Source: Clostridia bacterium (GTDB lineage: Bacteria > Bacillota > Clostridia > Lachnospirales > Lachnospiraceae). From it: DNA of 64,000 nt. A model generated the notes under the pieces. The model saw nothing but the letters and a program-made list of their open reading frames with translations, was not told where the DNA came from and searched no databases. The stretch spans positions 1 to 64,000 of the forward strand of contig SAAB01000009.1 in the NCBI GenBank assembly GCA_009929615.1, read 5' to 3'. This document shows, one piece after another, positions 7,822 through 10,125 of this stretch (positions are counted from its first letter, which is position 1; each line of letters begins with the position of its first letter). A program made the translations under genes and the position numbers.

Positions 7822-9015
7822 CTACAAAAGTATATTACTGGCGGACTGCTTTAATTTTGCAGTGTTGAAAACATAGGTGTTTAAGGTTGTCGCTATATCC
7901 TTGTGACCCATGCGTTCCATAACCGTATTCGGATAGGCCCCGTTCTCTGCCAGATAGGTGCCGTGGGTATGTCTCAGGCTGTGTGAATGGAAGAGTGGGT
8001 TATTGAGTTTCTTATGAATAAGAGTTGCACAGTAACCGAAGTTCTTCGGAGTTAGCAGCTTACCCGCCTCACGTGCCGAGAGCGGCATTATTTCTGTGTA
8101 ATCCGAACTAACTTCTGCGGAGGTCTGAACGACCTCGTTATCAGGCTTTAAATAGGTCCGCACAAAATACTCTCCGAAGCGAAGCTGGTTCTCACGACGT
8201 TTAATAAGTTCCTGTTTAAAGATTGCAGCTATGGTTTTACCCATTTCTATTGTGCGGACAGAATTATACTTTGGTTCACGATAGTACCAGTGGCCGTTTT
8301 CTCTGACCAACTGGTGCTGTATAGTAACTAGATTCTTCTTAAAGTCTACATCATGCAATAGGTCAATACCATATGTCTCAGAAATTCTGGTGCCCAGATG
8401 ATATCCTGTCATTATCGGGATATAATAATGGGTGGATGGTCCGAAGTGGGTAATAATTTTTTCAAAATCATCCTCTGTAAGGATATACTCGCGATGCTTT
8501 TTCCTAAATTCGGATTCTGGCCTTTGCGGTACTTTTGCCCACTGGCAGGGATTTGTTTTAATGTATTGGCAAGGCATTACCGCATAGTTCAGCGCTCCAG
8601 ATAAACAGTTCTTTATATTTACAACAGTGGGCCGTGCTAGACCTGTTGCAAAGATTTTATTGATTTCCACCTGTACGCTTCCAGGTTCAAGAGAAAACAA
8701 TTTGTAGATTCCAAAATGTGGCTTCAAATGATTTTCAACGATAGATTTATAATTTAGTGCTGTCAGATAGTGAAGATTAGGCTCGACATAGTTCGCAACC
8801 CAGAAGTCGAGATAGTCAGCAACAGATGCTTCTGAGGCCTTAAAGGTTTTTCCTGTGTTGTCATATTCTGCTTTTGTCTGTGTGCCGGCAGCCAAAGCTT
8901 CTGCCTTTGTCCGAAAACCACCCTTGGATATAGGATTTCTCTTTCCGCCAATTCTGGCACCTTCAAAAGACCATTCCCAAGTTTTACCTCTTTTTCGTGT
9001 TCGTAATTCTCCCAT
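7822..9015 (-). CDS. int: Tyrosine-type phage integrase
   Basis: A 397-residue site-specific recombinase. It has an N-terminal AP2-like arm-binding domain (about residues 1-60, with the GGFRTKAEALAA stretch), a SAM-like core-binding domain (about 65-170) and a C-terminal catalytic domain. Active-site residues visible: Arg in GTRISE, His and Arg in HSLRHTHGT, His in MGHKDIATTLNTY, with the final Tyr as nucleophile. The start has AAGGAGGATGATATT upstream. It lies next to attL at the left end, the last gene of the minus-strand lysogeny block. Confidence 0.95.
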   Translation of the reverse strand: MGELRTRKRGKTWEWSFEGARIGGKRNPISKGGFRTKAEALAAGTQTKAEYDNTGKTFKASEASVADYLDFWVANYVEPNLHYLTALNYKSIVENHLKPHFGIYKLFSLEPGSVQVEINKIFATGLARPTVVNIKNCLSGALNYAVMPCQYIKTNPCQWAKVPQRPESEFRKKHREYILTEDDFEKIITHFGPSTHYYIPIMTGYHLGTRISETYGIDLLHDVDFKKNLVTIQHQLVRENGHWYYREPKYNSVRTIEMGKTIAAIFKQELIKRRENQLRFGEYFVRTYLKPDNEVVQTSAEVSSDYTEIMPLSAREAGKLLTPKNFGYCATLIHKKLNNPLFHSHSLRHTHGTYLAENGAYPNTVMERMGHKDIATTLNTYVFNTAKLKQSASNILL

Positions 9016-9074
9016 AATATCATCCTCCTTAAAAATGGGTATAAAAATAACAGCCAGCAGAAATTATATTTTGC

Positions 9075-9103
9075 TTGCGAGGCTGCTCCGAGAATGATAC
9101 AAT
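9075..9103 (+). promoter_or_regulatory. Candidate promoter of a small RNA
   Basis: TTGCGA (9075-9080), 17-bp spacer, TACAAT (9098-9103). No plus-strand gene follows before a strong terminator, which suggests a short non-coding transcript. Confidence 0.5.
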
Positions 9104-9109
9104 ATTAAG

Positions 9110-9178
9110 TGATTTGGTTGTATATCCTCGGATATATGCTTGCCGTCCCGGTGTTGGTAGCGCCGGGGCGGTTTTTTA
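9110..9178 (+). ncRNA. Candidate phage small RNA between int and the immA-like gene
   Basis: About 70 nt from the predicted start to a strong terminator. It contains a small hairpin around TATATCCTCGGATATA (9120-9135) and then the terminator stem at 9143-9171. It is antisense to the intergenic part of the repressor-immA-int transcript, so it could act on that transcript or on the CRISPR-like repeat next to it. No reading frame with a ribosome site is visible. Supported only by the promoter and terminator pattern. Confidence 0.4.
9143..9178 (+). terminator. Rho-independent terminator; strong hairpin on both strands
   Basis: CCGTCCCGG (9143-9151) pairs with CCGGGGCGG (9163-9171), followed by TTTTTTATT on the plus strand. 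On the minus strand the same hairpin has no T-run, so the repressor-immA transcript can probably read through toward int. Confidence 0.85.
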
Positions 9179-9184
9179 TTTATT

Positions 9185-9213
9185 GTTTCAATCCACGCCC
9201 CGTAAGGAGCGAC
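9185..9213 (-). repeat. Solitary type I-C-like CRISPR repeat
   Basis: Read on the minus strand, 29 bases begin GTCGCTCC, continue TTAC and GGGGCG, and end GTGGATTGAAAC. This is the pattern of type I-C CRISPR repeats: 5' GTCGC, a GC-rich hairpin, then the conserved GTGGATTGAAAC/T handle. The stem is CGCTCC/GGGGCG with a TTAC loop, about three bases shorter than the usual 32-nt repeat. No second copy, spacer array or cas gene exists in the window. It starts two bases after the stop codon of the immA-like gene and is followed by an A-rich stretch and the strong hairpin at 9171-9143. Confidence 0.75.
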
Positions 9214-9215
9214 TA

Positions 9216-9686
9216 TTAAAAAAGCATACCCACTTGTAAATTGGGTATAAATCTAATAACATAATGGTCCATTCTATTTGCGTACCCGTTCGGGTGCTGC
9301 GTTCTGAAGTAAGATAGGGCATCCTCTAAAAAGTCCTCTGATACTCCTAAAAATTCAGCAATTTCATAACGATTTCTGCATCCGGCTTTAAAAGCACAAA
9401 ACAGGTCTGACGGTGTAAGCATTGCTTTATATGCCCAGACACGGGCTTCATGCTCCTGCTTGCGATTGGTGGTTTTGTTCTGGTCGCTTATGTCTCCATA
9501 GCTTGTATAGTGGTGACCGAGTTCTTCGGCCAGTATGCAGGCTTTTTCTGCGTCAGTTTCCAGTGCGGGGTCTAGGGCAATATTCCCATCTATGTATAAT
9601 CCCGGCAAGCCATCAGCGAGCCTAAATTTATGTACTTTAACCTTATTATCAGATGCATTCTGCATCAATTTTTCATATTTATTCAA
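9216..9686 (-). CDS. ImmA/IrrE-family metallopeptidase (phage anti-repressor protease)
   Basis: A 156-residue protein of the COG2856 type, which in ICEBs1-like elements and phages cleaves the repressor during induction. The motif ACILAEELGHHYTSYGD is clear. The first His of the usual HExxH is replaced by Glu here (EELGH), as I recall from some phage members, with a second His next to the motif. Another conserved block is EHEARVWAYKAMLTPSDLF. It follows the repressor gene on the same strand with a short gap. Zinc binding and target are inferred from the family. Confidence 0.85.
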   Translation of the reverse strand: MNKYEKLMQNASDNKVKVHKFRLADGLPGLYIDGNIALDPALETDAEKACILAEELGHHYTSYGDISDQNKTTNRKQEHEARVWAYKAMLTPSDLFCAFKAGCRNRYEIAEFLGVSEDFLEDALSYFRTQHPNGYANRMDHYVIRFIPNLQVGMLF

Positions 9687-9753: not shown

Positions 9754-10071
9754 TTACTTTTCTGTCTTTATAAAAGCTGCAAATGCTTTTATTCTTTCAA
9801 GCTGTTCTTCTGTGTATTCCGTTCCGTCAAAGTGGGCGGCGATAGTAGTCGGCTGAGTAGCAGCATTCTCTTTCTCTATTTGTTCTAATCTGTCAGGCGT
9901 AATTTCCAGTGCTTCACAAATTAAGCATACATTCGAATAGCTCGTCTTTCCAATACCATTTTCAAGAATAGATTTAACGGTGGAATACGCTATCCCCGTG
10001 GCTTTTGCAATGTCTGAAACTTTCATTCCCTTTTCTTCCATTATCTGTCTAATAATTTTTGCACGTTCCAT
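9754..10071 (-). CDS. XRE-family CI-like repressor
   Basis: A 105-residue protein with an N-terminal helix-turn-helix (KVSDIAKATGIAYSTVKSILENG, residues about 17-40) and a short acidic C-terminal tail (about 75-105) ending in EQLERIKAFAAFIK, a layout common in repressors that partner ImmA proteases. It is transcribed away from the early genes; three palindromic operators fill the gap to them. It most likely maintains lysogeny by blocking the rightward promoter. Confidence 0.87.
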   Translation of the reverse strand: MERAKIIRQIMEEKGMKVSDIAKATGIAYSTVKSILENGIGKTSYSNVCLICEALEITPDRLEQIEKENAATQPTTIAAHFDGTEYTEEQLERIKAFAAFIKTEK

Positions 10072-10125
10072 ATAATCACCTCATAATTGAATATTATAAC
10101 CAAACGCAATAAATGTAAATAGAAA

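Follow-up and report, generated by a model that had tools for sequence, protein, structure and literature searches.

The lysogeny region and its solitary repeat

The window, by which we mean the whole stretch of 64,000 nucleotides that was analysed, contains a prophage whose lysogeny genes follow one another on a single strand in the order repressor, immA, repeat and integrase (Table 1). The promoter-like site upstream of the repressor gene is likely, on its sequence, to be where a transcript extending to the repeat begins, and a search of the minus strand for terminator-like sites between the repressor and the repeat found none. No acr gene was identified beside the repeat, where the Pfam-supported neighbours are the repressor, immA and the integrase; published RNA anti-CRISPRs (Racrs) are enriched near acr genes, but such proximity is not a requirement.

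Table 1. Features of the lysogeny region, with positions in the window
Feature	Position	Strand	Evidence or description
Tyrosine integrase gene, downstream of the repeat	7822..9015	-	PF00589
Core of a conserved element found upstream of integrases	9088..9177	+	About 90 nt; inverted repeat, extended -10 (TGATACAAT), hairpin, intrinsic terminator with T-run
Terminator stem-loop (the '9-bp hairpin' of the earlier note)	9142..9172	+	14 pairs when folded on the proper strand
Solitary type I-C-like CRISPR repeat	9185..9213	-	29 nt, 6-bp stem, UUAC loop, predicted 11-nt handle UGGAUUGAAAC
ImmA/IrrE-like metallopeptidase gene, directly upstream of the repeat	9216..9686	-	PF06114 Peptidase_M78, E 2.4e-7
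Cro/C1-type repressor gene, first of the lysogeny unit	9754..10071	-	PF13443/PF01381
Promoter-like site upstream of the repressor gene	10091..10119	-	Consensus match only

Read on the minus strand from 9213 to 9185, the repeat is GTCGCTCCTTACGGGGCGTGGATTGAAAC, and only two bases (TA) separate it from the immA-like stop at 9216, as the earlier note had said. It combines the features expected of a type I-C repeat, namely a 5' GTCGC, a short stem and a 3' GTGGATTGAAAC/T, and is predicted to fold at -9.2 kcal/mol into a stem-loop followed by an 11-nt 3' tail. With a two-block weight matrix built from the array repeats of relatives, the repeat scores 37.3 and the runner-up, an unrelated site in the window, 16.1; the best scores in 40 first-order Markov sequences of 64 kb, searched on both strands, have a mean of 14.9, a standard deviation of 2.7 and a maximum of 24.4. 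Since the observed score lies so far above the simulated maximum, the repeat is not a product of chance. There is no second repeat and no spacer near it, and a single copy of the handle GTGGATTGAAAC exists in the window, as in the whole genome. The earlier description of a 29-base type I-C repeat on the minus strand, present in one copy without spacers or adjoining cas genes, is confirmed on each of these points. As a single, intergenic repeat on a mobile element with no adjoining cas genes, it is also what is understood by a solitary repeat unit (SRU). SRUFinder demands that a candidate match a known repeat with 90% identity, 90% coverage and a bit score of 41.1, and the 3-nt loop gap described below may put the unit beneath these thresholds when it is set against known repeats. 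Rfam returned only sub-threshold matches, among them one to CRISPR-DR9 on the repeat itself, at 17.3 bits against a cut-off of 45.

Relationship to array repeats

The closest array repeat that we found, GTCGCTCCTTACACAGGAGCGTGGATTGAAAT, comes from a type I-C array in another genome of the same family (G386). It agrees with the prophage unit at 27 of 29 bases, or 28 when the variable last base is ignored, with a single 3-nt gap in the loop. The two share their first 12 nt and a stem of 6 bp, and their handles are identical except for the last base, which is T in the array repeat and C in the prophage unit. The loop has 7 nt in the array repeat but 4 nt in the prophage unit, where ACA is missing, and a U-A pair of the array stem has become U-G in the unit through a change of A to G, so that pairing is kept. 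The G386 repeat belongs to an array of many, whereas the prophage unit is single. The earlier remark that the stem is shorter than usual therefore stands only in relation to other I-C repeats (that of the host, for example, has a 7-bp stem) and fails against the closest repeat, which is equally short.

Solitary I-C repeats are common among the IMG/VR matches listed, and a dedicated pattern found four 29-nt units there, all of them solitary; this length is rare and accounts for 4 of 81 solitary repeats and 0 of 168 array copies among those matches, the array copies not being independent of one another. Searches for the exact 29-mer and for a near-exact 33-mer pattern gave no match in viral contigs. 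BLAST with the repeat returned just 17-base chance matches from phage records and, from plasmids, apparent I-C repeats (at many places per record) together with chance matches. Single copies of the 13-mer CGTGGATTGAAAY in other relatives were discarded as mostly chance, their flanks being without the repeat stem. Within G386 (C1:2313500-2318000; L242), one I-C repeat is preceded by a spacer whose end, TATGCTTTAATA, is similar to the bases just before the repeat in the window, TATGCTTTTTTAATA; the similarity may be fortuitous or may record a capture from an array.

A separate element on the plus strand

The earlier note had proposed that an A-rich stretch and a 9-bp hairpin downstream of the repeat (9177-9143) could shield a processed RNA. 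This part of its proposal must be withdrawn: neither feature is specific to the repeat, and the hairpin is imperfect on the minus strand and belongs to an element on the plus strand. In the terminator stem, plus-strand G-U pairs correspond to A-C mismatches on the minus strand, so that 14 pairs on the one face 3+5+1 on the other. The core of the element is part of a longer conserved stretch, about 160 bases in all (9016-9177). Of 397 genomes of the family, about 29 have the element upstream of an integrase gene (most of the loci L027-L053, L057 and L243); this gene encodes a tyrosine integrase in some of them and a serine recombinase in others. The repeat is absent from all examined loci that carry the element elsewhere. 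Variants of the extended -10 keep good -10 hexamers, and the inverted repeat that spans the -10 site, CCGAAGAT...ATCTTCGG, has four pairs changed on both sides. Conservation without the repeat, pairing on the plus strand and association with two kinds of integrase mark the element as separate from the repeat, which merely happens to lie between the immA stop and the element's terminator. The element is opposite in strand to int, and no Rfam family reaches its cut-off in the window; we infer that it is probably a small plus-strand RNA or an operator that governs integrase expression. The misread hairpin has thus brought to light an element, conserved but unannotated, that lies upstream of integrases of two unrelated kinds.

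Distribution of the repeat among prophages

Conservation of the repeat after immA in related prophages, which the earlier note had proposed to look for, was not found. No I-C repeat was found in the 48 genome loci or the three viral loci with a related immA, in the best 80 tyrosine-integrase loci, or in the 29 family-genome loci that match this region of the window, and the one instance among 80 serine-recombinase loci is the seed locus itself. Its absence from related immA and integrase loci indicates that the unit is sporadic.

In two unrelated prophages, solitary I-C repeats occupy the same slot between repressor or immA and integrase. On one contig (G064 C231; L002/L023) small coiled-coil-like genes come after an ImmA-like gene and lead to the first repeat, at about 1120-1165; another two of these small genes separate it from the second, at about 1892-1936, beyond which lies a serine recombinase. 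Each repeat is succeeded by a (CAAA)n tail. The other case is a viral genome (L139, IMGVR_UViG_3300006145_000320), in which two I-C-like repeats, one of them degenerate, lie at 502-657 between an S24-type repressor and a serine recombinase. Tails resembling (CAAA)n are also seen in L073, L128 and L235-L239. It would be attractive to see in these cases a recurrent class of solitary I-C repeats between repressor or immA and integrase, which would supply a decoy throughout prophage silence, or else allow the Cas5d of the host to cut the lysogeny message and so link the control of integration to the presence of CRISPR, but we consider this quite unlikely.

A different arrangement is found in an IMG/VR prophage with an ImmA-like protein and a tyrosine integrase (L136, IMGVR_UViG_2775507043_000006), which abuts an I-C array at about 1460-1490, the last repeat being halved at the junction as if integration had taken place inside a CRISPR repeat. 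From the position of this prophage against a cut repeat, it follows that repeats may serve as integration sites.

Type I-C systems in the host lineage

The host assembly (G000) has a contig of 6543 bases (C11; L022) that carries I-C cas4-cas1-cas2 and two I-C repeats. The rest of the contig looks mosaic, with relaxase-like and ParM-like frames and with a single frame that joins an integrase to a VapE-like protein; the contig is either a remnant or chimeric. Profile searches, from which the cas content of the host was determined, found no cas5d, cas7 (csd2) or cas8c (csd1) in the assembly, and detected Csd1 (Cas8c) in 14 of 61 relatives, though in none of the four same-genus genomes searched. 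The contig and the relatives together show that the lineage meets type I-C systems, whose absence the earlier note had named among the things that would refute it, and type I-C is common in the family. Since effector genes were not found in the host assembly, there is perhaps nothing to inhibit in the present strain; this host may not run a type I-C system, and the unit may be idle there. Among published SRUs whose hosts have CRISPR-Cas, 83% have a matching subtype in the host, which is an association and not strictly defining. Neither the 315 I-C spacers of relatives nor the host's own spacer gave a full-length match to the prophage. The best partial matches, of 17-18 nt, were rejected as protospacers.

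A candidate RNA anti-CRISPR and its alternatives

Our preferred interpretation, to which we give a probability of roughly 0.6, is that the unit is a phage-borne solitary type I-C repeat acting as a Racr (RNA anti-CRISPR). What we observe of it is its similarity to I-C repeats, its predicted fold, its solitary state, its position and its orientation; transcription, binding and cutting by Cas5d, and inhibition are inferred. That a solitary I-C repeat in the repressor-immA unit is a Racr candidate was already the earlier note's reading, and it is backed by the sequence, structure and orientation of the repeat and by published precedent (PMC10651486). When Cas5d cuts I-C repeats, it leaves a 5' handle of 11 nt, and one Cas5d remains on the hairpin end, which has 21 nt (PMC5965380); RacrIF1 draws Cas proteins into a complex that is defective (PMC10651486). 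By this model, the repressor-immA transcript of a lysogen would carry the repeat in its 3' untranslated stretch, and where the host has an active type I-C system, Cas5d would attach to the hairpin and cleave at its 3' base. One Cas5d would stay on the hairpin, and the downstream product would be a decoy consisting of the 11-nt handle UGGAUUGAAAC and then AAUAAAUAAAAAACCGCCC..., the unstructured start of an A-rich pseudo-guide. Real crRNAs would have to compete with this decoy for Cas5d, Cas7 and Cas8c, and the resident prophage would be protected as a result, the lysogeny message providing a standing supply of the decoy, by analogy with published Racrs.

The missing loop bases could instead belong to a repeat in neutral decay, one that recombination at the 3' end of immA took singly out of a CRISPR array and that has no function. 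Such an origin would sit well with the occurrence of the unit in one prophage only among its relatives and with the lack of detected I-C effector genes in the host; it could also account for the short sequence preceding the repeat (TATGCTTT..AATA) that resembles the spacer end beside the closest G386 repeat, and which is either a capture scar or chance. We nevertheless think it unlikely that the unit is only a leftover: the stem is intact and the handle perfect despite the loop loss, and the position and orientation suit a transcribed Racr, with similar placement in two unrelated prophages.

Two further explanations give the repeat a different role. As Cas5d cuts such hairpins and leaves an 11-nt handle (PMC5965380), the Cas5d of a type I-C host might sever the integrase part of the polycistronic lysogeny message from its repressor/immA part, and the presence of CRISPR would in this way alter the expression of integrase or immA. 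The position of the repeat between these genes, on the same strand, in three unrelated prophages is what such a host-triggered RNA switch would lead us to expect, but this placement is rare at the integrase loci surveyed above, most of the solitary I-C repeats among the IMG/VR matches listed are located elsewhere, and the integrase may possess its own promoter; we judge the switch very unlikely. Alternatively, the repeat might work as DNA, either as a decoy or as a landing site for spacer integration by the Cas1-Cas2 of the host or for recombination with the host array. Viral integration has been suggested before for solitary repeats (mentioned in PMC10651486), the genome has I-C cas1-cas2 of its own, and the IMG/VR prophage described above abuts a cut repeat. 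Here, though, there is no leader or spacer beside the repeat, the prophage lies outside the host array, and the unit is internal, 1.4 kb from the 3' end of the integrase gene and away from the prophage border, all of which makes a role at the DNA level extremely improbable.

If the unit does function as an RNA anti-CRISPR, the decoy would be made through the dormancy message, at the time when a resident prophage most needs shelter from a self-targeting CRISPR system. RNA anti-CRISPRs would then be known from the lysogeny operon of Clostridia-type prophages as well, and there would be an easy way to test whether Racrs are of use to lysogens in addition to infecting phages.

Comparison with known systems

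The unit recalls the mini-arrays of viruses in being a repeat related to host repeats in a viral genome without cas genes, but mini-arrays carry a spacer and a second repeat, neither of which is present at 9213-9185. With RacrIF1, from a Thiocystis violascens prophage (PMC10651486), our candidate would share the principle of a solitary prophage repeat that serves as an RNA decoy for parts of Cascade. RacrIF1 differs in that it belongs to type I-F, involves Cas6f and has its own promoter, and its active product is the upstream piece without the 5' handle, whereas the cut predicted here would yield a downstream piece that bears the handle.

RacrIC1, from a Bifidobacterium pseudocatenulatum prophage (PMC10651486), is likewise a solitary I-C repeat in a prophage, just 3' of a protein gene on the same strand; it lies 11 nt downstream of acrIC5, is co-transcribed with it and inhibits type I-C. 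Its neighbour is thus an acr gene, where the unit described here has immA in a repressor operon, and inhibition has been demonstrated for RacrIC1, while our unit, of 29 nt and with a 4-nt loop, is known from its sequence and comes from a host in which effector genes were not found. The earlier claim of a new case accordingly holds in part: the Racr kind, including a co-transcribed I-C Racr, was already published, and what the prophage adds is a new candidate member in an unusual location.
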